A DNA stretch of 64,000 nt from Falsiroseomonas bella (GTDB lineage: Bacteria; Pseudomonadota; Alphaproteobacteria; Acetobacterales; Acetobacteraceae), in assembly GCF_003173615.1 (NCBI RefSeq), contig NZ_QGNA01000005.1, forward strand, positions 1-64,000. Direction: 5' to 3'. Below the pieces are notes generated by a model, which searched no databases, was not told where the DNA came from, and saw only the letters and a program-made list of their open reading frames with translations. Below, one piece after another: positions 18,655-29,597 of the stretch. The stretch's first letter is position 1. The number at the start of each line of letters is the position of its first letter. Position numbers and translations under genes: made by a program.

Positions 18655-20421
18655 GTGACCGCCCTTCCCCCGTCCCGCGCGCCGGTCCTGGCGCTCCGGC
18701 TGCTGCTGCCGCATCTCCGCCCCTACCTGCCCCGCGCGCTCGGCGCGGGCGCCGCCCTGCTGGTCGCCGCGCTGCTGACGCTGGCGCTCGGCCAGGGGCT
18801 GAAGGCCCTGATCGACACCGGCCTCGGGCCGGGCAGCGCGGCGGGGCTGAACACCGCGGCCGGCCTGATGGCGGCGATCGTCGCCGCACTCGGGGTGGCG
18901 ACGGCGGCGCGCTACTACCTGGTCTCCTGGCTCGGCGAGCGTGTCGCGGCCGACATCCGCCGGCGCGTCTACGACCATGTCGTCGGCCTGAGCCCGTCCT
19001 TCTTCGAGACGGCGCGCACCGGCGACATCCTCTCCCGCATGACCGCCGACGTTGCGCTGCTGCAATCGCTGGTCGGCTCCGCCATCTCCATGGGGCTGCG
19101 CAACGCCGTCACGGGCACCGGCGCGCTGGTGATGATGGCGGCCACCTCGCTCAAGCTCGCCGGTATCGTGGCGCTGGTGCTGCCCGTGGTGATCGCGCCG
19201 CTGGTGCTGTTCGGCCGGCGCGAACGCCGCCTCTCGCGCGTCGCGCAGGACCGCATCGCGGACCTCGCCGCGCGGGCCGAGGAGACGCTGAACGGGCTGC
19301 GGACCGTGCAGGCCTTCGCGCAGGAGGATGCGGAGCGCGCGCGCTTCGCAGAAGGCACGGAGGCCTCCGTCACCGCCGCGCTGCGCCGCATCGCCTCGCG
19401 CGCAGCGCTGATCCTCGCGGTGATCCTGCTCGGCTTCGGCGCCATCACCTTCGCGCTATGGGTCGGCGGGCAGGATGTGGTGGCGGGGCGGATGAGCGGC
19501 GGCGACCTCGCGGCCTTCGTCTTCTATGCCGTACTGGCGGCCAGCGCGGGTGCCACGGTCAGCGAGCTCTGGGGCGAGATCCAGCGCGCCGGCGCCGCCG
19601 CCGACCGGTTGATGGAGTTGCTCGCCGTGCAGCCGGACATCGCCGCGCCCGCGATGCCCGCATCGCTGCCGCAGCCGCCCCAGGGCCGCGTCGCGCTGGA
19701 GCGGGTGCGCTTCGCCTATCCCTCGCGCCCTGGCCAATGGGCGCTGGACGATGTCTCGCTCGCGGTGCAGCCGGGCGAGACGGTGGCGCTGGTTGGCCCC
19801 TCCGGCGCCGGCAAGACCAGCCTCTTCCAGCTCCTGCTCCGCTTCTACGACCCGCAGTCGGGCCGCGTGCTGGTGGATGGCCTGGACGTCGCCACGCTCG
19901 ATCCCGCTTCGCTGCGCGCGCGCATCGCCCTGGTGCCGCAGGAGCCGCTGATCTTCGGCGCGACGGCCGCCGACAACATCCGCTACGGCCGGCCCGGCGC
20001 GACGGATGCCGAGGTTCGCGACGCCGCCGAGGCCGCATCCGCGGCCGGCTTCATCACGGCGCTGCCGCAGGGCTTCGCCACGCATCTCGGCGCGCGCGGC
20101 GTCACGCTCTCCGGCGGGCAGCGCCAGCGCATCGCCATCGCCCGCGCCATCCTGAAGGACGCGCCCATCCTGCTACTGGACGAGGCGACGAGCGCGCTGG
20201 ACGCGGAGAGCGAGCAGGCGGTGCAGCAGGCGCTGGAGCGCCTTTCGCGCGGGCGCACCACGCTCGTCGTCGCGCATCGGCTGGCCACGGTGCGCCGCGC
20301 CGACCGGATCCTGGTGCTGGAGGAAGGCCGCATCGTCGCCTCCGGCACGCATGAGGCGCTGGTCCGCGACGGCGGCCTCTATGCCCGCCTCGCCGCGCTG
20401 CAGTTCACCGAGCACGCCTGA
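18655..20421 (+). CDS. ABC exporter, fused membrane and ATPase domains (MsbA/ABCB-like)
   Basis: 588 residues. An N-terminal six-helix ABC exporter domain (about 1-315, with ETARTGDILSRMTADVALLQ) is followed by a nucleotide-binding domain: Walker A GPSGAGKTS (Lys387), signature LSGGQRQR, Walker B ILLLDEATSALD and the switch His in VVAHRLATV. It works as a homodimer pumping lipids, peptides or drugs out of the cytoplasm. The start is uncertain; GTG at 18655 is preferred, and TTG at 18619 would add 12 residues. Its stop shares a base with the start of the methyltransferase-HNH gene (TGATG), so the two are translationally coupled. Confidence 0.9.
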   Translation: MTALPPSRAPVLALRLLLPHLRPYLPRALGAGAALLVAALLTLALGQGLKALIDTGLGPGSAAGLNTAAGLMAAIVAALGVATAARYYLVSWLGERVAADIRRRVYDHVVGLSPSFFETARTGDILSRMTADVALLQSLVGSAISMGLRNAVTGTGALVMMAATSLKLAGIVALVLPVVIAPLVLFGRRERRLSRVAQDRIADLAARAEETLNGLRTVQAFAQEDAERARFAEGTEASVTAALRRIASRAALILAVILLGFGAITFALWVGGQDVVAGRMSGGDLAAFVFYAVLAASAGATVSELWGEIQRAGAAADRLMELLAVQPDIAAPAMPASLPQPPQGRVALERVRFAYPSRPGQWALDDVSLAVQPGETVALVGPSGAGKTSLFQLLLRFYDPQSGRVLVDGLDVATLDPASLRARIALVPQEPLIFGATAADNIRYGRPGATDAEVRDAAEAASAAGFITALPQGFATHLGARGVTLSGGQRQRIAIARAILKDAPILLLDEATSALDAESEQAVQQALERLSRGRTTLVVAHRLATVRRADRILVLEEGRIVASGTHEALVRDGGLYARLAALQFTEHA

Positions 20422-22130
20422 TGGCGCGGCCGGACACGATCGGCGCCTACAACCGCGGCTTCCGCGAGTTCACAGAGGCCTACGAGGCCTTCGGCTTCGC
20501 CGAGATCCATGCCGGGGCCATGCCCTTCCTGCCCAAGCCCCCGGGCCTGGTGCTGGATGTCGGCGCGGGCAGCGGCCGTGACGCCGCCTGGTTCGCCGAT
20601 CACGGCTTCGAGGTGATCGCCGTCGAGCCCGCGCCGAAGCTACGGGAGGAAGCCGCGCGGCTGCATCCCTCGCCGCTGATCCGCTGGCTGGATGACCGGC
20701 TGCCCGCCCTCTCCGCCGTGCACCGCCTCGGCCTCGCCTTCGACCTCGTCTGGGTCAGCGCCGTCTGGCAGCACATGACGCCCGAGGACCGGCCCCGCGC
20801 CATGCGCAAGCTCGCGACGCTGCTCAAGCCGGGCGGGCGCGTGGTGGTGACGCTGCGCCACGGCCCCGCCCCGCAGGATCGCCCGATGTGGCCGGTGGAT
20901 GCCAATGAGGTGGAGCGTCTCGGCCTCGATCACGGCCTCGCGCTGCGCGTCGCGACGGAGCGCATCGAGGACCGGCAGGGCCGCGCGGATGTGCGCTGGC
21001 AGACCGTGGTGCTCGACCTGCCCGACGACGGCGGCGGCGCGCTGCCGCTGCTGCGCGGCGTGATCCTGCGCCAGGAACGCTCGGCCACCTACAAGCTCGC
21101 CCTGTTGCGCTGCCTCGCCCGCATCGCGGACGCCTCGCCCAATGTCGCCCGGGAGGCGGAGGCGGATGTGGAACTGCCGCTTGGCCTCGTTGCGCTCTAC
21201 TGGCTGCGCATGTTCAAGCCGCTGGTCGAGCGCGACCTGCCGCAGATGCCCGTCGGCATCGGCATGGCCTTCGTGAAGGATTCTTTTCACGCACTGCGCC
21301 CGCTGGCACCCTTCGATCTCCGGCCGGGCGCGCAGTTCGGCGCGGACGTGGCGGTGCCGCTGCGCCGCGCCATGGCCGATGCGGCGCGGGTGATCGCCGA
21401 CATGCCCGCGCGGCACCTGACCTTCGCCGACGACACGCCGGTCTTCCCCGCCTCCTATGGCCGCATGCCGCGGGAGTCCGGCGCCATCGGGCTGAACGCC
21501 GAGCTGTTCTGGACCTATGGCCGCATCCGCGTCCCCGCCGATGTCTGGCGTGCGCTGCGCCGCATGGCAGCCTGGATCGAGCCGATGCTGCTCGCCGAAT
21601 GGGTGCGCCAGACCCGCGACTATGCCGAGCGCGCCGGGCGCGTCCTGCCCACCGACGCCGTGCTCGATGCCCTGCGCTGGCTGGAGCCGGCGCGCGACAC
21701 GGCCTTCGTCCGTAGCCTGCTCGCCGACCATCTGACGCGCGGCGAGCGCCTGGACTGCGTCTGGACGGGGGAGCCGCTGCGCGCCGGCGGGCTCGACGTG
21801 GACCATTGCCTGCCCTGGTCCGCCTGGGCCTGCAACGACCTCTGGAACCTGCTGCCGGCCTCGCGCCGCGCCAATCTCGGCAAGGCCGGCCAGATCATCG
21901 CCGCGCCCACCCTCGCCGCCGCGAAGCCGCGCATCCTCGACTGGTGGCGGCGCGGCTACCAGGAAGCCGCCGAGCCGATCCGCGCCCGCTTCGCGGAGGA
22001 GGCGCGCAGCACCTTGCCCCTGCCGCCCGACCGCGCGCCGGACCTCGAGGATCTCTTCGCCGCGCTCGACTTCCGCCGCCTGCGGCTGCGGCAGGAGACG
22101 CAGCTGCCGGAATGGCGCGCCGATGCCTGA
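20421..22130 (+). CDS. SAM-dependent methyltransferase fused to an HNH endonuclease domain
   Basis: 569 residues, two domains. N-terminal class I methyltransferase (about 1-200): DVGAGSGR (46-53) is motif I, Glu69 the likely ribose-binding acid, and FDLVWVSAVWQHM plus LLKPGGRVVVTLRHG give motifs IV-VI. No (D/N)PP(Y/W) DNA-methylase motif is visible. The C-terminal part starts near ERSATYKLALL (Tyr224) and contains an HNH site: DVDHCLPWS (Asp461, His462), NDLWNLLP (central Asn476) and RRANLGK (Asn485, Lys488). I recall HNH proteins with the YKxALL and NxLWNLxP layout as standalone nucleases. It overlaps the exporter gene by one base and the LysR gene by 8. Its role is unknown. Confidence 0.82.
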   Translation: MARPDTIGAYNRGFREFTEAYEAFGFAEIHAGAMPFLPKPPGLVLDVGAGSGRDAAWFADHGFEVIAVEPAPKLREEAARLHPSPLIRWLDDRLPALSAVHRLGLAFDLVWVSAVWQHMTPEDRPRAMRKLATLLKPGGRVVVTLRHGPAPQDRPMWPVDANEVERLGLDHGLALRVATERIEDRQGRADVRWQTVVLDLPDDGGGALPLLRGVILRQERSATYKLALLRCLARIADASPNVAREAEADVELPLGLVALYWLRMFKPLVERDLPQMPVGIGMAFVKDSFHALRPLAPFDLRPGAQFGADVAVPLRRAMADAARVIADMPARHLTFADDTPVFPASYGRMPRESGAIGLNAELFWTYGRIRVPADVWRALRRMAAWIEPMLLAEWVRQTRDYAERAGRVLPTDAVLDALRWLEPARDTAFVRSLLADHLTRGERLDCVWTGEPLRAGGLDVDHCLPWSAWACNDLWNLLPASRRANLGKAGQIIAAPTLAAAKPRILDWWRRGYQEAAEPIRARFAEEARSTLPLPPDRAPDLEDLFAALDFRRLRLRQETQLPEWRADA

Positions 22131-22995
22131 GCTCGACACCGCCCTGCTCCGCGCCTTCGTCGCGCTGGCGGAGACGCGCAGCTTCTCCCGCACCGCCGAG
22201 CGCGTGGGCCGCTCCCAATCAGCCGTCTCCATGCAGATCCGCCGGCTCGAGGAGATTTTGGGCTGCGCGCTGTTCCTGCGCGACAAGCGCAACGTGGAGA
22301 TCACGGCGGAAGGCGAGGCGCTGCTCGGCGATGCGCGCCGCATCCTGGCGCTGTCGGATGGGATGGTCGCGCGGATGCGCGCGCCGGAGATCGCGGGCGA
22401 GGTCCGCTTCGCCAGCCCCGAGGATTTCGCCACGCAATACCTGCCGGAAATCCTCGCCGCCTTCGCCGCGCGGCACCCGCAGGTGCATCTGCACGTCACC
22501 TGCGACCTCACCTTGAAGCTGGTGGAATCGCTCGGCCGCGGCGAGCAGGACCTGATCGTGGTGAAGCAGGACCCGGCGGACCCCTATCCGGGCGGCCGCC
22601 CCCTGTGGCGGGAGCGCCCGGTCTTCGTCGGGCGTGAGCGGACCGGGCCGCAGCTTTCCGATGGCAGGCTGCCGCTCGTGCTCTCCCCCGCCCCCTGCGT
22701 CTATCGCCGCCGCGGCGTCACTGCGCTGGACCAGGCGGGGCTGCCCTGGGACATCGCCTATACGAGCCCCTCATTCGCCGGCACGGTCGCCGCGGTGCGG
22801 GCCGGGCTCGGCGTCACGGTGCTGCCACGCACCATGGTGCCGGACGGGCTGGTGGCGATGGAGGCCGGCCAGGGCTGGCCCGCCCTGCCGGAGGTGGAGA
22901 TCGCCCTGCTCGCCGCCCCGCGCGTCTCCCCGGCGACCACGGCGCTCGCCGCCTTCATCGAGCAGCGGGTGCCGACTTATCGGCAAAACCGATAA
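22123..22995 (+). CDS. LysR family transcriptional regulator, probable dab operon regulator
   Basis: 290 residues. Winged HTH at about 5-65 (LRAFVALAETRSFSRTAERV, then SQSAVSMQIRRLEE), followed by a periplasmic-binding-like effector domain. Its ATG lies inside the end of the methyltransferase-HNH gene. Its stop codon lies within a perfect palindrome of the T-N11-A type just upstream of dabB. LysR genes beside dabBA are common in bacteria with DAB systems, and control of inorganic-carbon uptake is the natural reading. The effector is unknown. Confidence 0.93.
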   Translation: MPELDTALLRAFVALAETRSFSRTAERVGRSQSAVSMQIRRLEEILGCALFLRDKRNVEITAEGEALLGDARRILALSDGMVARMRAPEIAGEVRFASPEDFATQYLPEILAAFAARHPQVHLHVTCDLTLKLVESLGRGEQDLIVVKQDPADPYPGGRPLWRERPVFVGRERTGPQLSDGRLPLVLSPAPCVYRRRGVTALDQAGLPWDIAYTSPSFAGTVAAVRAGLGVTVLPRTMVPDGLVAMEAGQGWPALPEVEIALLAAPRVSPATTALAAFIEQRVPTYRQNR

Positions 22996-22996
22996 G
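22976..22996. promoter_or_regulatory. LysR-type operator palindrome upstream of dabB
   Basis: A perfect inverted repeat, CTTATCGG (22976-22983) and CCGATAAG (22989-22996), around CAAAA. It contains ATC-N9-GAT and T-N11-A, the classic LysR box. It overlaps the last codons and TAA of the lysR gene and lies about 80 bp before dabB. The region after it is relatively A-rich (CCAAAAAATTCGC), unlike the surrounding GC-rich DNA, and probably carries the dab promoter. No T-run follows, so a terminator is unlikely. Confidence 0.75.
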
Positions 22997-23074
22997 ACAC
23001 ATCCAAAAAATTCGCTTCACGCATCGCCTGACCTGCTCCACTTCCCCGCCGCACCAGCAACGGGCCGGGGTTTC

Positions 23075-24469
23075 ATGGCGCGCCTTCTCTCCTCCGCGAT
23101 GTGGTCGGCCTTCGGGCTTTTCCTGCTGGTGCTGGCGTTCCGCGCCGGCGCCGAGCCCCTGGCCTTCGGCCCCTTCCGCCTGGATTCGCTGGCGCTGTTC
23201 CTGGGCGCCGCGGTCACCCTGGTCAGCGCCGTGGTCCACCACTTCGCCTTGCGGCACATGCAGGGCGATGCGGCGTACGAAAGCTTCTTCCGGCGCCTCT
23301 CTGGGCTGACCGCGCTGGTGCTGCTGCTGCTGGCGGCCGATTCGGTGCTGCTCTTCGCCGGGCTCTGGGTGGCGATGGGCTGGCTGCTGGCGGATGCCAT
23401 CGGCCATGTCCGGTCCTGGCCCCAGGCCCAGGCCGCCGCTGCTCTGGCGCGGCTGTGGTTCCTGCGCGGCGCCGCCGCGCTGGTGGTGGGGCTCCTGCTG
23501 CTGGCCGCCGCGACCGGCAGCCTCTCCATCGCCGGGATCGTCGCCGCCGCCGGCGCGGCCAACCCGCTGCTGGTCGGCCTCGGCTGCGCCGCGCTCGGCC
23601 TGGCCGCGGCCATCCAGTGCGGGCTGTTTCCCTTCCAGCGCTGGCTGCTCTCCTCGATGACCGCGCCGACGCCGGTCTCGGCCTTCATGCATGCGGGCCT
23701 TGTCAATGCCGGCGGCATCCTCGTCGCCCGCTTCGCCCCCGCCTTCGAGGCCGCGCCGCTGGTCCTGCTGCTGGTCTTCGCCGCCGGCGCCGCCAGCGCG
23801 CTGTTCGGCCAGGTCGCCGCGCTGGTGCAGTCCGACGTGAAGCGCGGCCTCGCCGCCTCCACCACGGCGCAGATGGGCTTCATGCTGATGCAGTGCGGCC
23901 TCGGCTTCCATGCCGCGGCGATGACCCACCTGGTGCTGCACGGTCTCTACAAGGCGAGCCTCTTCCTCGGCGCCGGGTCGGGCCTTGCCGCCGCGCGCCG
24001 GCCGGGCAGCACCGGGACGCCGGGTGCCGCCGCCATCGGGCCGGCACTTTTCGCTGCGCTGCTCGGCGGCGCCGGCTTCGCGCTCGCCTCCGGCAAGCTC
24101 GGCGCGGATACGGGCGCGCTACTGGTGCTGTTCGCCGCACTTGCCGCCGCGCAGGCCAGCCTCGCCACTTCCGCTGCCGCACCGCTGGTCCGCTGGGCCG
24201 CCGCGCCACTGCTGCTCGGCCTCGGCGGCGTGCTCTACGGCGCGCTGATCCGCGGGGCGGAGGCGCTGCTGGCCGGCACGCCGGGCCTCGTCGCGCCGCA
24301 GCCGCTCACCGCGCTGCACTGGCTGGCAGCCGGCGCCTTCCTCGCCGCCTGGATCGCCGTGCAGGCCGGGCTGCATCGCCGCTCCGCCGCGCTCTATGTC
24401 CGCGTGCTCGGCCTCTCGCAGCCGGCCGCCGCCGCCATCACCGATCGCCGGGAGACCGCCCATGCCTGA
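23075..24469 (+). CDS. dabB: DAB inorganic-carbon transporter membrane subunit (NADH-quinone oxidoreductase subunit L-like)
   Basis: 464 residues with about 12 to 14 membrane spans. The antiporter core resembles NuoL/MrpA: APTPVSAFMHAGLVNAGGI and KRGLAASTTAQMGFMLMQCG, then HLVLHGLYKASLFLGAGS with conserved Lys and His of the proton path. DabB couples cation flow to bicarbonate formation by DabA. Pairing with dabA shows it is not part of respiratory complex I. The ATG at 23075 is the first Met before the hydrophobic N-terminus. The gene overlaps dabA by 8 bases. Confidence 0.93.
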   Translation: MARLLSSAMWSAFGLFLLVLAFRAGAEPLAFGPFRLDSLALFLGAAVTLVSAVVHHFALRHMQGDAAYESFFRRLSGLTALVLLLLAADSVLLFAGLWVAMGWLLADAIGHVRSWPQAQAAAALARLWFLRGAAALVVGLLLLAAATGSLSIAGIVAAAGAANPLLVGLGCAALGLAAAIQCGLFPFQRWLLSSMTAPTPVSAFMHAGLVNAGGILVARFAPAFEAAPLVLLLVFAAGAASALFGQVAALVQSDVKRGLAASTTAQMGFMLMQCGLGFHAAAMTHLVLHGLYKASLFLGAGSGLAAARRPGSTGTPGAAAIGPALFAALLGGAGFALASGKLGADTGALLVLFAALAAAQASLATSAAAPLVRWAAAPLLLGLGGVLYGALIRGAEALLAGTPGLVAPQPLTALHWLAAGAFLAAWIAVQAGLHRRSAALYVRVLGLSQPAAAAITDRRETAHA

Positions 24470-26819
24470 GCTCGCACGCCTGTCCGCGCAGATCGAGATC
24501 GCGGCCGGCCACGTCACGCCCTATTGGCCGCTGCGCAGCTTCATCGCTGCCAACCCGCTGCAGGGCCTGGAGGACCAGCCCTTCGAGCACGCAGCACGCG
24601 CCGGCGGCGCCCTGTTCGGCGGCCGGGCCTATCCGCCCGCCGCGATGTTACGCGCCGCGCTGGCCGATGGCCGGATCGACCGCGCCATCCTGGCCGAGGC
24701 CGCGGCGCGGCATGGAGATCACGCCGCCGCCGATCCCGCCGCGCTGGACGCGCCCGAGGCCGCCACGCGGCCCGCCGCGCCCTCCGCGGTGAACCGCGCG
24801 CTGATCCGCTGGCTCGCCGCCTTCCTCGACGAAGGCCAGGCCGCCTGGACCATGCCGGGCCGCGAGCGCGGCCTCTGGCCGGCGGTGCGCGCGCTCGCGC
24901 GGCACGATGCCGAGATCCCCCGCGGCGCCGAGGCGGAGTCCCTGCCGGAGGACGCGTTCCGCGCCGTGGCGGAGCTCGTCGCCGACGTGCCGGAGGAAGA
25001 GCGCAGCGCACTCTTCACGCGCCATCTCGTCGCACTCGCCGGCTGGTCCGGCTATGTGAAGTGGCGTGCCCAGGCGCGCGGTCATGACTGGGCCGCAGCC
25101 GCGCCGGCGACGCTCGCCGACCTGCTCGCGCTGCGGCTGTTCCTCGCACGGCAGTTCGACGAGACGCCCGCCACGACGCCCGCGCAGGTGGCGCCGGACG
25201 CCGCCGCGATCTGGCTGGAAGCCTGGGAGGAGACCTGGCGACGGGGCCTCGCCGCACGGCTGGCCGGCACCGCGCCCGGCCCGGCGCCGCGGCCGGAGGC
25301 GCAGCTCGTCTTCTGCATCGACGTGCGCTCCGAAGTCCTGCGGCGCCACCTGGAGAGGCGCGGCCCGTGGGAGACGCTGGGCTTCGCCGGCTTCTTCGGC
25401 GCCGCCGTCGCGGTGCAGCCCTTCGGCGAGGCCTCGGCCTATGCCTCCTGCCCCGTGCTGCTGCAGCCCCGCCATGCGGTGCCCGAGGTGGCCGCGCCGG
25501 GCGAAGAGCAGGCGGCCGCGGCACGCCTCACCGGCCTCGGCCGCCTGAAGCGCGCCAAGGCCGGGCTGCGGGCGATGAAGGAAAGCCTCGCCGGCGCCTT
25601 CGGCTTCGTGGAGGCGACGGGCGCGGCCTTCGGCGCCGGGATGGTCGCGCGCACCGTCGCGCCGGGCGGCTTCGCCCGTCTTGCTGGCGGCCTTGCGGAG
25701 AAAGTCGCGCCGCCGGCGCGCACGACGCCGCGCATCGCGCTGGCCTGCGACGACGGCTCCGCGGCACCGACGGGCCTCAGCCCCGCCGAGCAGGCGGCGA
25801 CGGCCGAGGGCGCGCTGCGCATCATGGGCCTGACCGCCGGCTTCGCGCCCATCGTGGTGCTCTGCGGCCATGGCGGCCAGGCGGTGAACAATCCCTTCGC
25901 CGCCGGCCTCGATTGCGGCGCCTGCGGCGGCAACCGCGGCGGGCCGAATGCCCGCATCATGGCGGCGATCCTGAACGAGCCCGCGGTGCGCAGCGCGCTC
26001 GCCGCGCGCGGCATCGCGATCCCGGTGGAGACGGTGTTCCTCGCCGCCGAGCACGACACCACGACCGACACGGTCACGCTCTGGGACACCGACCGCGCCG
26101 CCGCGCATGGCGCGATCCTCGCAAGGCTGCAGCAGGATCTCGCCGCCGCCCGCGCCGCCGCCGCGGCCGAGCGGCTCTCGCGGCTACCCGGCGGCGCTCC
26201 CACGCGGGCGCTGGCCGATGTCGAGCGTCGCGCGACCGACTGGGCGGAGACGCGACCCGAATGGGCGCTGGCGCGGAATGCCGGCTTCATCGTCGCCGAT
26301 CGCGGCTTCACCCGCGCGCTGGACCTGGAAGGCCGCTGCTTCCTGCACTCCTATGACTGGCAGGCGGATACGCAGGGCACGGCGCTCGAGGTGATCCTGA
26401 CCGCGCCGCTCGTCGTGGCGCAGTGGATCAACACGCAGTACTACTTCTCCACCGTGGACAACGGCGTGTTCGGCGCGGGATCGAAGGTGACGCACAACGT
26501 GGTGGGCGGCTTCGGCGTGATGCAGGGCAATGCCAGCGACCTGATGACCGGCCTGCCCGCGCAATCCGTGCAGTCCGCCGACGGCGTCGCCTATCACGAG
26601 CCGCTGCGGCTGATGGCGGTGGTGCAGGCACCGCTCTCCCGCGTGGAAGGACTGATTGCCAAGCACCGCATCCTGCAGACGCTGTTCGGCAATGGCTGGG
26701 TCGCCCTACTGGTCGCCGACCCCGAGACCGGGCGCTTCCTGCGCCGCAACCGGGACGGCAGCTGGCGCGACGAGACGCAAGCGCCGGCCGCCCCCGCCCC
26801 TGCCCTGATCGCCGCCTGA
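24462..26819 (+). CDS. dabA: DAB inorganic-carbon transporter subunit DabA (DUF2309)
   Basis: 785 residues, DUF2309, a beta-carbonic-anhydrase-like catalytic subunit. The expected zinc ligands are all present: Cys285 and Asp287 in VFCIDVRSE, His470 in LCGHGGQ and Cys485 in LDCGACGGNRGG, with the 15-residue His-Cys spacing known for characterised DabA. It would hydrate CO2 one way into cytoplasmic bicarbonate, driven through DabB. The family start NPLQGLEDQPFEHAA near residue 32 is intact. In a heterotroph this feeds carboxylating enzymes at low CO2. Confidence 0.95.
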   Translation: MPELARLSAQIEIAAGHVTPYWPLRSFIAANPLQGLEDQPFEHAARAGGALFGGRAYPPAAMLRAALADGRIDRAILAEAAARHGDHAAADPAALDAPEAATRPAAPSAVNRALIRWLAAFLDEGQAAWTMPGRERGLWPAVRALARHDAEIPRGAEAESLPEDAFRAVAELVADVPEEERSALFTRHLVALAGWSGYVKWRAQARGHDWAAAAPATLADLLALRLFLARQFDETPATTPAQVAPDAAAIWLEAWEETWRRGLAARLAGTAPGPAPRPEAQLVFCIDVRSEVLRRHLERRGPWETLGFAGFFGAAVAVQPFGEASAYASCPVLLQPRHAVPEVAAPGEEQAAAARLTGLGRLKRAKAGLRAMKESLAGAFGFVEATGAAFGAGMVARTVAPGGFARLAGGLAEKVAPPARTTPRIALACDDGSAAPTGLSPAEQAATAEGALRIMGLTAGFAPIVVLCGHGGQAVNNPFAAGLDCGACGGNRGGPNARIMAAILNEPAVRSALAARGIAIPVETVFLAAEHDTTTDTVTLWDTDRAAAHGAILARLQQDLAAARAAAAAERLSRLPGGAPTRALADVERRATDWAETRPEWALARNAGFIVADRGFTRALDLEGRCFLHSYDWQADTQGTALEVILTAPLVVAQWINTQYYFSTVDNGVFGAGSKVTHNVVGGFGVMQGNASDLMTGLPAQSVQSADGVAYHEPLRLMAVVQAPLSRVEGLIAKHRILQTLFGNGWVALLVADPETGRFLRRNRDGSWRDETQAPAAPAPALIAA

Positions 26820-26832
26820 CGGAGCGCACCCC

Positions 26833-27183
26833 ATGGAATCCGCCGACGAACTGGCCTTTCACCCGCTCAAGAAGATCGAGATCATCCTGCCCGGCGAGAA
26901 GCAGGCCTTCGTGCGCGAGCTGCTGGAACGCAGCGGCTGCACCGGCTGGACGCTGTTCCGCGACGTCGCCGGCCAGGGCCATCACGGCTTCCATGAAGGC
27001 CGCCTGCTCTGGAACGACCAGGCGAGCATCGTGATGTTCATGGCGGTCGGGTCGGAGGCGGTGATCCGCAAGGTGGCCGCCGGCCTGAAGCCGCTTTTCG
27101 CCAAAGGCTCGGGCGTGATGTTCGTCTCCGACACGCATGTGGTGCGGCTCGAGCATTTCCTGAGCGCCGACGGGGCGGACTGA
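26833..27183 (+). CDS. PII-like signalling protein of the DAB locus
   Basis: 116 residues with the PII ferredoxin-like fold: KKIEIILPGEKQAFVRELLE, then GCTGWTLFRDVAGQGHHG, then a C-terminal strand with HVVRLEHF. The uridylylated T-loop Tyr context of GlnB/GlnK is absent. PII-like proteins next to dabBA or SbtA-type transporters bind adenine nucleotides and are thought to adjust bicarbonate uptake. It follows dabA by 13 bp behind GGAGCG, so it is the last gene of the dab unit. I infer control of DabAB over nitrogen control. Confidence 0.88.
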   Translation: MESADELAFHPLKKIEIILPGEKQAFVRELLERSGCTGWTLFRDVAGQGHHGFHEGRLLWNDQASIVMFMAVGSEAVIRKVAAGLKPLFAKGSGVMFVSDTHVVRLEHFLSADGAD

Positions 27184-27311: not shown

Positions 27312-29597
27312 GTGAACGCCGTGCCCCCCACCCCCGGCCACGAATTCCTCGCCAGGGGCGCCGAGACCATGTCACGCGCCTTCGACCAGATGCGCAGCCT
27401 GGCCGAGGTCGCCGCGCGCCAGGCCGAGACCCTGGCCCCCAAGGCGCCCAAGGCACCCGCCTCGCTCGGCCTGTTCGGCCGCAACCCGCTGACCATGATG
27501 CAGGAGGCGATGGAATACGCGGTGGACGCGACGCAGCGCTCCATCCTGTTCTGGGACACGATGCGCCGCGCCGGCAACGACTTCGTCGAGCACGAGAAGG
27601 CCGGCTGCCCGCCCGTGCTGGTCTTCGACTGGGAGATGATGCTGGACGGCCGCACCCTGCCGCGGCGCTGCAACTACGCCCTGGTCCGCATCAAGCCGCC
27701 CGCGAACTACCCGGCGACGGACCCGGCGATGCGCCCCTTCGTCATCATTGACCCCCGCGCAGGCCACGGCGCCGGCATCGGCGGCTTCAAGTCCGACAGC
27801 CAGGTGGGCGTTGCGCTGCGCCGCGGCCATCCCGTCTATTTCGTCATCTTCTTCCGCGACCCGGAGCCGGGCCAGACCATCCTCGACATCACCGCCGCCG
27901 AGCGCGCCTTCCTGCGCAAGGTGCACGACCTGCACCCGAAGGCGCCCAAGCCTGTCGTCATCGGCAACTGCCAGGGCGGTTGGGCGGTGATGATGCTTGG
28001 CGCCTCCGACCCGGAGCTGATGGGACCGCTGGTGCTGAACGGCGCGCCGCTCTCCTACTGGGCGGGCGAGAAGGGCAAGAACCCGATGCGCTACATGGGG
28101 GGCCTCGCCGGCGGGTCCTGGCCGGCGGCGATGATGGCCGACCTCGGCAATGGCCGCTTCGACGGCGCCAACCTGGTGCTGAACTTCGAGGCGCTGTCAC
28201 CCGGCAACACCTGGTTCAAAAAATACTGGAACCTCTACGAGAAGGCCGACACCGAGCCCGACCGCTTCCTGGAGTTCGAGCGCTGGTGGGGCGGCTACTT
28301 CCTGATGAACCGCGACGAGATCCGCTGGATCGTCGAGAACCTGTTCATTGGCGACCGCTTCGCGCGCGGCGAGATCAGCGCGGGCCCGTCCAGCCGCGGC
28401 GGCGCCACCTTCAACATGCGCTCGATCAAGTCGCCCATCGTCGTCTTCGCCTCCGCCGGCGACAACATCACGCCGCCCGGCCAGGCGCTGCGCTGGATCG
28501 CCGACGTCTATCGCGACGAGAAGGAGATCAAGGCGCTCGGCCAGACCATCGTCTATCTCGTGCATGACGAGATCGGCCATCTCGGCATCTTCGTCAGCGG
28601 CCAGGTGGCGAACAAGGAGCACACGGAGATCGCCAACACGCTCGAGATGATCGAGGCGGTGGCGCCCGGCCTCTATGAGATGCGCATCACCGACACGGCG
28701 GGCAGCGGCGCCAACACCGGCTACCAGGTGGAGCTGGTGGAACGCAGCATCGCCGACATCCGCGCCGTCTCCGGCGAGGCGGAGAACGAGGCCTTCCCGG
28801 CCGTGGCGAAGATCGCGGCCGCCAACCAGACGCTCTACGACCTTCTCGTCGGCCCCGCGATCCGGCACCTGGCGACGGAGCGCACGGCGGAGCTGCGCCG
28901 CCAGATGCATCCGCTGCGCCTGCGCCGCACGCTGGTCTCCGACCTCAACCCCTTCATGGCGGCCTTCGCCGGCGCGGCGGAGCGCGTGCGGGCGCAGCGC
29001 GCGCCGGCCGCCGCCGACAACCCGTTCCTGAAGGTCGAGCGCGCCATGGCTGATCGGGTGGAGGGCTCGCTCGATGCCTGGCGCGACTGGCGCGACGCCT
29101 GGACCGAAGCGGCCTTCCACGCGGTCTACGGTTCGCTCGCCGCGCTCGGCGTCTCGGAAGCGACCGCCGAGGAGGAAGCCGCCGAGACCGCGGATGCGCT
29201 CGCCGACGCGCCGGAAGTGCGCGCCGCGCTCTCCCGCATCGCGGAGGGCAGCTACGCCGAGGCGGTGGTGCGCATGATGATCCTGCTGGCGCGCGCGCGC
29301 GGCGGCGTGCGGCGCTCGCGCCTCGCGCGCAGCCAGGCCGTGCTGACCGGCGAGGCGCCCTTCGCCGAGCTCACCGCCGCCGCGCGCCAGGCCCTGATCC
29401 GCGAGCAGACGCTGGTGGTGGAGATGGCCCCGGAGGAGGCGCTGCTGACCCTGCCGAAGCTGCTTCCCGACAAGGCCGAGCGCCGCCGCGCGCTCACCAC
29501 GGTGGAAGATGTCGCTGGGCCGGAGGAGGAGTTGGGCGAGCCCGCGCAGGCGATGCTCGCGCGGCTGCGCAAGGTGCTCGGCCTCGGCGGCCGCTGA
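27312..29597 (+). CDS. DUF3141 protein, alpha/beta-hydrolase with a PHA-synthase-like catalytic triad
   Basis: 761 residues, the usual length of DUF3141 proteins. A phasin-like N-terminal helical stretch (AFDQMRSLAEVAARQAETL) precedes an alpha/beta-hydrolase domain. The nucleophile elbow reads GNCQGG with Cys220, as in PHA synthases (GxCxGG). Asp384 in SAGDNITPP and His423 in DEIGHLG complete a plausible Cys-Asp-His triad. The C-terminal third is helical and less conserved. The enzymatic role is unproven; polyhydroxyalkanoate metabolism is suggested. The GTG start at 27312 has only a weak ribosome site; ATG at 27369 is an alternative. It follows the dab genes, but a separate promoter is likely. 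Confidence 0.88.
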   Translation: MNAVPPTPGHEFLARGAETMSRAFDQMRSLAEVAARQAETLAPKAPKAPASLGLFGRNPLTMMQEAMEYAVDATQRSILFWDTMRRAGNDFVEHEKAGCPPVLVFDWEMMLDGRTLPRRCNYALVRIKPPANYPATDPAMRPFVIIDPRAGHGAGIGGFKSDSQVGVALRRGHPVYFVIFFRDPEPGQTILDITAAERAFLRKVHDLHPKAPKPVVIGNCQGGWAVMMLGASDPELMGPLVLNGAPLSYWAGEKGKNPMRYMGGLAGGSWPAAMMADLGNGRFDGANLVLNFEALSPGNTWFKKYWNLYEKADTEPDRFLEFERWWGGYFLMNRDEIRWIVENLFIGDRFARGEISAGPSSRGGATFNMRSIKSPIVVFASAGDNITPPGQALRWIADVYRDEKEIKALGQTIVYLVHDEIGHLGIFVSGQVANKEHTEIANTLEMIEAVAPGLYEMRITDTAGSGANTGYQVELVERSIADIRAVSGEAENEAFPAVAKIAAANQTLYDLLVGPAIRHLATERTAELRRQMHPLRLRRTLVSDLNPFMAAFAGAAERVRAQRAPAAADNPFLKVERAMADRVEGSLDAWRDWRDAWTEAAFHAVYGSLAALGVSEATAEEEAAETADALADAPEVRAALSRIAEGSYAEAVVRMMILLARARGGVRRSRLARSQAVLTGEAPFAELTAAARQALIREQTLVVEMAPEEALLTLPKLLPDKAERRRALTTVEDVAGPEEELGEPAQAMLARLRKVLGLGGR

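Follow-up and report, generated by a model that had tools for sequence, protein, structure and literature searches.

The methyltransferase encoded at the 5′ end of one fusion gene in Falsiroseomonas bella belongs to a clade in which it is the constant part and the partner effector varies. The gene occupies positions 20421-22130 on the plus strand of a 64,000-nucleotide stretch (contig NZ_QGNA01000005.1, positions 1 to 64,000), referred to here as the window, and all positions without a locus name are those of the window. It is a single uninterrupted open reading frame (ORF) of 569 amino acids (aa) that joins a class I S-adenosylmethionine (SAM) methyltransferase, a winged helix-turn-helix (wHTH)-like region, and an HNH nuclease site, and its homologues are found across the Acetobacteraceae and in other proteobacteria. 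As judged from sequence comparison, the fusion is probably, at odds a little better than even (about 0.55), the single-chain version of a modular system against invaders in which the methyltransferase would be the control module, here combined with an HNH nuclease. The data suggest an undescribed modular immune switch in which the same methyltransferase is coupled to exchanged, likely killer parts, partly beside immune genes. The family with exchangeable effectors, and its links to defence and phosphorothioation genes, go beyond the original prediction, which had been made from the window sequence alone.

The variety of the effectors was observed with a methyltransferase profile (A2) of 11 rows, three of which were full fusions, hence its 573 positions. 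At 1e-25 this profile detected the enzyme in 35 of 398 Pseudomonadota genomes, comprising 15 fusions, one broken gene (G450; G numbers denote genomes and L numbers loci), and 19 others. In two of these 19 the methyltransferase is fused behind a two-transmembrane (two-TM) domain (G444 and G468), and in seven a nuclease or helicase gene adjoins it or lies in its operon (G558, G307, G437, G225, G580, G485, and G549, the last convergent); nine have no effector among the genes listed, and G489 was not resolved by the gene caller. The effector kinds are thus the fused wHTH-HNH, a fused or adjacent two-TM protein, two other HNH types, a PLD-helicase (PLD-SF2), and an SF2 helicase. The partner in G437 shows remote homology to the wHTH-HNH half (E 4.5e-9 for 10,000 nominal sequences), and that in G558 is a different HNH protein. 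Sister genes of a single genus (g217) also differ in their partner, which is a fused wHTH-HNH, a neighbouring HNH of the SBD type or of the Cas9-like kind, or absent. All ten viral loci found by a two-TM query carry the methyltransferase directly downstream (split over two frames in L232), and three earlier loci bring the viral two-TM/methyltransferase loci to 13 on 11 contigs, several of them near-copies; the methyltransferase of viral locus L098, whose upstream side is cut at the contig end, was left out. The two parts are fused in Rhizobium as well as in G444 and G468, and homology between the two-TM domains of fused genes and those of adjacent genes was detected at E 1e-9 to 1e-11. The pair is also present on the chromosomes of 29 of 5,426 E. 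coli genomes, and the one site inspected was a prophage.

An IQ-TREE phylogeny of 65 methyltransferase domains resolved a clade of 47 rows with 100/100 support from 18 rows outside it. An effector is carried or adjoined by 46 of the 47 clade rows, and in the sole row that lacks one (G533) the gene lies next to the two genes that also flank the HNH fusions in G461 and G275 (neighbours 64-78% identical). For the 18 rows beyond the clade, inspection of flanks of approximately 1.5 to 6 kb revealed no recognisable effector. The effectors other than wHTH-HNH are nested among the wHTH-HNH fusions: the HNH-fusion label requires seven changes, at least four of which are forced by starred branches, and all ten effector labels together require 10 changes compared to a shuffled mean of 28.8. 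The tree was rooted at the midpoint only, and the direction of effector change depends on the root.

In the proposed mechanism, the wHTH-like region would grip DNA, the HNH site would nick or cut it, and the methyltransferase would gate the effector as its control module. Gating may occur through SAM or substrate occupancy, or through methylation of the effector or of a self mark (e.g., a phosphorothioate environment), and the effector would be released upon infection, or by foreign DNA that either lacks the mark or interferes with methylation. Since the partners of the methyltransferase include a membrane protein in addition to nucleases, its most likely role is to gate the effector and not simply to shield a single DNA site. 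Similarly, the replacement of a nuclease by a membrane partner argues that the target of the methyltransferase is the effector or a signal and not a DNA site alone.

The original prediction had placed a class I SAM methyltransferase and a complete HNH site in one chain, and the Pfam matches, motifs, and conservation agree with this. Separate domain searches placed both Methyltransf_11 and HNH_4 above the Pfam cut-offs. The motifs DVGAGSGR, DVDH, NDLWNLLP, and RRANLGK start at residues 46, 459, 472, and 482. The HNH_4 site (residues 446-489, positions 21756-21887, plus strand) scored 23.8 bits against a cut-off of 22, which places the protein among the HNH_4 nucleases with predicted activity. 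Residues D461, H462, N476, N485, and K488 are common to 20 aligned homologues and are kept in 33 of 34 aligned fused proteins, the window protein included; the exception (L136) represents only the initial fragment of a broken gene, which ends before the site, so the loss of Asp461, His462, or Asn476 that would have spoken against a nuclease was not seen. The C-terminal part does align to HNH families, as its profile also matched the Cas9 HNH (E 0.0011) and the HNH endonuclease 4h9d (E 0.027) among PDB sequences. An AlphaFold model of the full chain, a check proposed with the original prediction, had a mean pLDDT of 82.3; the methyltransferase half was confident (pLDDT 76-96 over ten-residue blocks), and confidence fell below 50 at residues 470-483, inside the HNH site. 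A Foldseek search with the model of residues 200-569 gave no PDB match at E <= 0.001. Models of the full chain and of residues 200-569 both showed a helix-helix-strand-helix arrangement at residues ~206-270 (SATYKLALLR... VELPLGLVALYWLRMF; positions 21036-21230, plus strand), and the wHTH name is taken from this predicted secondary structure and its position because the region has no match in Pfam or PDB.

The expectation that standalone HNH proteins with a similar C-terminal part exist was also borne out. The fused C-half profile, with that row excluded, matched the standalone Nostoc protein WP_251960960 with an E value of 8.6e-38 at a nominal 10,000 sequences (26% identity). Methyltransferase-free proteins that match at least 70% of the C-half are present in the cyanobacteria Nostoc and Tolypothrix and on Deinococcus and Hymenobacter plasmids; they are distant (~22-27% identity), resembling the fusion in their homologous wHTH-like region and HNH site and differing in that they have no methyltransferase. 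Shorter matches to the HNH region were found in Leptolyngbya, Allochromatium, Segatella, and a Roseomonas mucosa plasmid. Further HNH endonuclease genes, which may be partners, occur in the vicinity of HNH_4-type proteins or fusions of Nostoc, Azospirillum, and Deinococcus (L054:4741-5583, L056:5710-6639, L057:6291-7220, and L060:5112-5978), and three of them scanned as HNH_2. A viral contig carries a 133-aa HNH piece that shares 46-47% identity with the C-terminal half of the window protein (L099:2923-3324); a second viral scan with the C-half profile confirmed none of 18 candidates.

Several fusions lie among immune genes. Set D consisted of 18 genome-derived divergent fusion loci, with L128 (where the contig ends at the gene), L047, L149, L152, L153, and seven plasmid loci excluded, and its locus names rest on hand-picked proteins; the controls were 18 stretches at round coordinates of the same contigs and were not randomly drawn. 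A PADLOC scan at 1e-20 of the 106 neighbours within three genes in set D matched 61 families, 25 of which are listed, and the scan of 108 control proteins matched five (mad3, three RtcR models, and BrxHI), which were taken as generic. Matches discounted as generic by judgement were GlgB, mad8 (two members), and DpdE and ZorD (one each, one SNF2 helicase) in set D, and mad3 (two), RtcR, and BrxHI in the controls. Among the matches listed, named defence genes occur within three genes of at least seven of the 18 divergent loci, compared to none of the 18 controls (Fisher p 0.008). The genes beside the divergent fusions include PDC-M65A/B with WYL (L125), DdmD/DdmE with WYL (L126), type IV restriction with WYL (L129) or by itself (L131), LmuA/LmuB (L130), and MzaE (L135); in L092, PDC-M65A/B and ThsA/ThsB are beside the fusion. 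A defence protein had been among the candidate roles of the original prediction, and this genomic context supports it. The PADLOC candidate pair PDC-M65A/B adjoins the fusion both in another family of the phylum (L125:4838-8234, G547) and in the genus of the window (L092:4778-8148, G195), on the strand of the fusion in one of the two and on the opposite strand in the other.

A second link is to phosphorothioation genes. All five distinct plasmid two-TM/methyltransferase loci (eight plasmid records, 80% coverage) adjoin dnd or ssp-like genes. In Rhizobium NXC14 the two-TM/methyltransferase fusion lies between a dndB gene and dndB-C-D-E-cysteine desulfurase, and in R. phaseoli this fusion is beside dndC, dndD, and an FtsK gene. 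In the Agrobacterium, Sphingopyxis, and Sphingomonas plasmids the two genes are divergent from an ssp-like series of cysteine desulfurase, DUF4007 (SspB, according to an excerpt of PMC12839542), a large ATP-binding or hypothetical protein, and PAPS reductase. Within ~14 kb of the module in three further genomes there are dndA-B-C-D-like genes and TIGR04096 (G468), dndB-C-D-like genes and TIGR04096 (G485), or cysteine desulfurase, DUF4007, SspC-like, and TIGR04096-like genes (G444). The TIGR04096-type gene, for a phosphorothioation-associated putative methyltransferase, recurs near the methyltransferase of the module in G485, G468, and G444 (L213:3874-5757, L262:10292-12091, and L264:3758-5575). 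The HNH fusion has such neighbours in some genomes. In G154, whose fusion is 71% identical to the window protein, it is followed after 40 bp by dndC, a small open frame, dndD (which in the assembly contains an in-frame stop), and HerA. The DndC proteins of G154 and R. phaseoli, the latter a carrier of the two-TM form, share 57% identity, which points to a similar cluster with either effector. In G045 the fusion precedes an N-terminally truncated dndD-like gene and then HerA, and in G188 the fusion and dndC each lie at a contig end. Overall, dndC is present in 5 of the 20 Acetobacteraceae genomes with the fusion and in 3 of the 180 without it (p 0.0003); among the latter three, G017 has a fusion fragment below the cut-off.

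This physical linkage and the co-occurrence of dndC would also be expected if the protein were a nuclease against phosphorothioate-modified DNA, or a restriction arm of Dnd/Ssp, and the methyltransferase were an accessory enzyme in this chemistry. The HNH protein adjacent to the methyltransferase in G558 matches NF045808, the model of a phosphorothioated-DNA-binding restriction endonuclease, at E 7.6e-17 (below the curated cut-off), and its counterpart in G307 is 70% identical to it. We regard this explanation as rather unlikely. The gene dndC (TIGR03183, E <= 1e-20) is absent from 41 of 48 module genomes, those of G558, G307, and the window included, and phosphorothioation is therefore not obligatory. 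The window protein has no match to NF045808 up to E 0.1 and by this measure is not of the SBD/ScoMcrA type. Its C-half has no detectable homology to the SBD-type HNH of G558 and G307 (hhalign probability 0.1%), and a common origin of the two is unsupported. The Dnd/Ssp association is present in some relatives (G154, G468, G485, and G444); the window genome (G000) has neither dndC (TIGR03183, 1e-20) nor DUF4007 (PF13182, 1e-10), and the window copy is an orphan without a dndC or SspB-type gene.

The nature of the methyltransferase bears on a second alternative, one-chain restriction-modification, in which the methyltransferase would mark self DNA and the HNH site would cut unmarked DNA at the same sites. 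The domain covers residues 1-199 (positions 20421-21017, plus strand; motif I, DVGAGSGR, at 20556-20579), and its Pfam score, motif residues, and fold are those of a class I SAM methyltransferase. Pfam Methyltransf_11/25 spans residues 44-143, the best match being Methyltransf_11 at 45-143 (E 1.7e-13, above the cut-off). D46, G48, G52, and E69 are kept in 33 of 33 fused rows and G50 in 32 of 33. Restriction-modification would account for both enzymes in one chain, a likely DNA-reading region, and the defence neighbours, and we nevertheless consider it unlikely. In agreement with the original remark that no (D/N)PP(Y/W) motif is visible, the amino-methyltransferase motif (D/N/S)PP(Y/F/W) is absent from all 569 residues, which sets the protein apart from ordinary restriction-modification fusions and from the type IIG-like kind. 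The fold matches are to small-molecule and tRNA methyltransferases, also as predicted, with 3h2b, 5ufm, and 3e23 as the top Foldseek hits in PDB and CmoM, UbiG, and thiopurine methyltransferase below them. Moreover, the same methyltransferase also occurs together with a two-TM protein, and it is not obvious how a DNA mark by itself would switch such a partner.

The thiol-methyltransferase family TPMT scored barely above its Pfam cut-off (26.6 against 26), and the weak PDB matches of the fusion protein include thiol methyltransferase chains. Together with the dnd/ssp link, this kinship makes a sulfur-directed reaction possible, which is speculation. A tentative extension, which we would not expect to hold in full, is a new class of immune switch whose thiol-methyltransferase-kin core would sense or S-methylate phosphorothioate chemistry or an infection signal, with HNH, PLD-helicase, or two-TM parts executing; it would replace DndFGH/SspE in dnd/ssp clusters and be an orphan elsewhere, including in the window genome.

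A match to mad2 was rejected as evidence for a further candidate identity, Mad2 of the MADS system. PADLOC mad2 matches the methyltransferase core (E 1.4e-18), and this match is not full-length (residues 34-199 against 284-444 of the 492 in mad2); the other mad2 matches inspected (L202, L205, and L206) are HsdM-like, and L202, which matches over the full length, carries an NPPF motif. L202 (G476:C1:1367434-1369377) is located ~18 kb from the fusion of G476.

The fusion is widespread and kept. Homologues are 60-90% identical in a core Acetobacteraceae set and ~34-50% identical in other Acetobacteraceae and in other alpha-, beta-, and gammaproteobacteria. Both halves are present in 20 of 200 Acetobacteraceae genomes, which were chosen by coverage with the pieces in G167 and G163 excluded. 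The C-half profile matched 18 of the 398 Pseudomonadota genomes and in 15 of these 18 the methyltransferase shares its reading frame, which answers the question, raised with the original prediction, of whether homologues keep the fusion; the others are the broken gene of G450 and pieces in G234 and G485. Gene calls were made with our own ORF heuristic, which yields some spurious frames. A gene near the G086 fusion (L095:5956-7368) resembles tniQ, and this copy may therefore travel with a Tn7-like element.

Several observations weigh against a modular anti-invader system, in addition to the rarity of dndC in module genomes. The rows outside the methyltransferase clade lie mostly in ordinary gene contexts and show no effector in the flanks inspected, and the enzyme may therefore have a metabolic origin. 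The window's own clade (>=60% identity) is likewise mostly among ordinary genes: the PADLOC scan of 97 neighbours of 17 core loci (set A) found only one DndD/PbeC-type and one MotB-type protein. Set A omitted L141, a second dnd-linked locus of this clade whose fusion was missed by the gene caller, as well as L032, L033, L035, and second copies from the same genomes, and its row L147, part of the fusion gene itself, was dropped. In 4 of the 20 Acetobacteraceae genomes the fusion gene has an in-frame stop or frame break (G004, G033, G006, and G049, counted as present). With respect to the phosphorothioation link, DUF4007 is present in 3 of the 48 module genomes, dndC among fusion genomes outside the window's family is limited to a weak match in G503, and five phosphorothioation clusters inspected (G166, G138, G049, G197, and G005) have no methyltransferase module nearby. 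Both p values are optimistic because the genomes are phylogenetically dependent. A housekeeping or repair enzyme with a nuclease domain and no defence role is very unlikely, since the ordinary surroundings of the window clade and the presence of both halves in the 20 Acetobacteraceae genomes are set against a patchy distribution, an empty site in G095, the exchange of effectors, the plasmid and defence-gene contexts of fusions, and the prophage contexts of the two-TM form.

In the window, the stop of an ABC exporter gene and the start of the methyltransferase overlap at base 20421 (TGATG), and the ATG of a LysR gene at 22123 falls within the 3′ end of the fusion gene. The original prediction had described the fusion gene as translationally coupled to both. 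An ABC exporter ortholog is present in 14 of 15 genomes of the window's genus, and the fusion is present over most of its length in 7 of the 15, including the 49%-identical copy of G195. In G095 the exporter is followed directly by the gene at 27312, and both the fusion and LysR are absent. L031 (on the same contig as G204) keeps the exporter-fusion arrangement without LysR; L032, L033, and the window have LysR as well as the exporter and the fusion; and the 13 other loci (L034-L046) have none of the nine other window genes tested. A functional unit of exporter, LysR, and fusion was therefore rejected, and the gene overlap is a local, lineage-specific arrangement that sister genomes lack, with incidental neighbours. 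The LysR gene heads NuoL-like, DUF2309-like, and PII-like genes (22123-27183) that resemble a dab-type inorganic-carbon cassette, and it is probably part of that block. The block is missing in L031/G204, where its two flanks join. The earlier interpretation is thus partly supported: the real fusion, the complete HNH site, the non-DNA-type methyltransferase, and the defence candidate stand, and the functional link to the exporter and LysR does not.

The design of a sensor with a swappable effector is known in CBASS and Thoeris. A non-DNA-type SAM methyltransferase as the constant part was not found described in the literature searched. A full-text search, with poor coverage of subscription papers that makes absence weak evidence, likewise found no description of the methyltransferase-HNH fusion or module, in line with the original view that it is not a studied system; nothing useful was found on methyltransferase antitoxins or on S-methylation of phosphorothioates. 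In the portion of PMC13092281 available, the Fig. 4 legend on validated E. coli systems abbreviates MTase, which may or may not refer to the present family. If confirmed, the proposed switch would be a new control chemistry for prokaryotic immunity, would give phosphorothioation clusters a new execution arm, and would explain genes annotated just as 'class I SAM-dependent methyltransferase' or 'methyltransferase domain-containing protein'.

Among known systems, the phosphorothioation-linked DndFGH, SspE, SspFGH, PbeABCD, and DndI similarly reside alongside the dnd/ssp modification genes and are active against the DNA of phages, according to excerpts of PMC11662687, PMC9646914, PMC8092258, and PMC9239217. 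The same excerpts describe SspE and DndI as phosphorothioate-sensing NTPase-nickases, in contrast to the SAM methyltransferase beside an effector in the present family, and many copies of the present module, unlike those effectors, occur without phosphorothioation genes. The ParB-CTPase-SAM methyltransferase (Methyltransf_23), phage-enriched in the part of PMC12704722 available, likewise joins another domain to a methyltransferase from the same broad Pfam group; its partner differs from HNH, and the likeness is drawn at the level of the Pfam group. The modification-dependent endonucleases SruGXI and HhiV4I combine a wH domain with an HNH nuclease, as does the window protein; in the available text of PMC11037411 they recognise N6-methyladenine and no methyltransferase fusion is described for them, and they are likened to the present fusion by description only.

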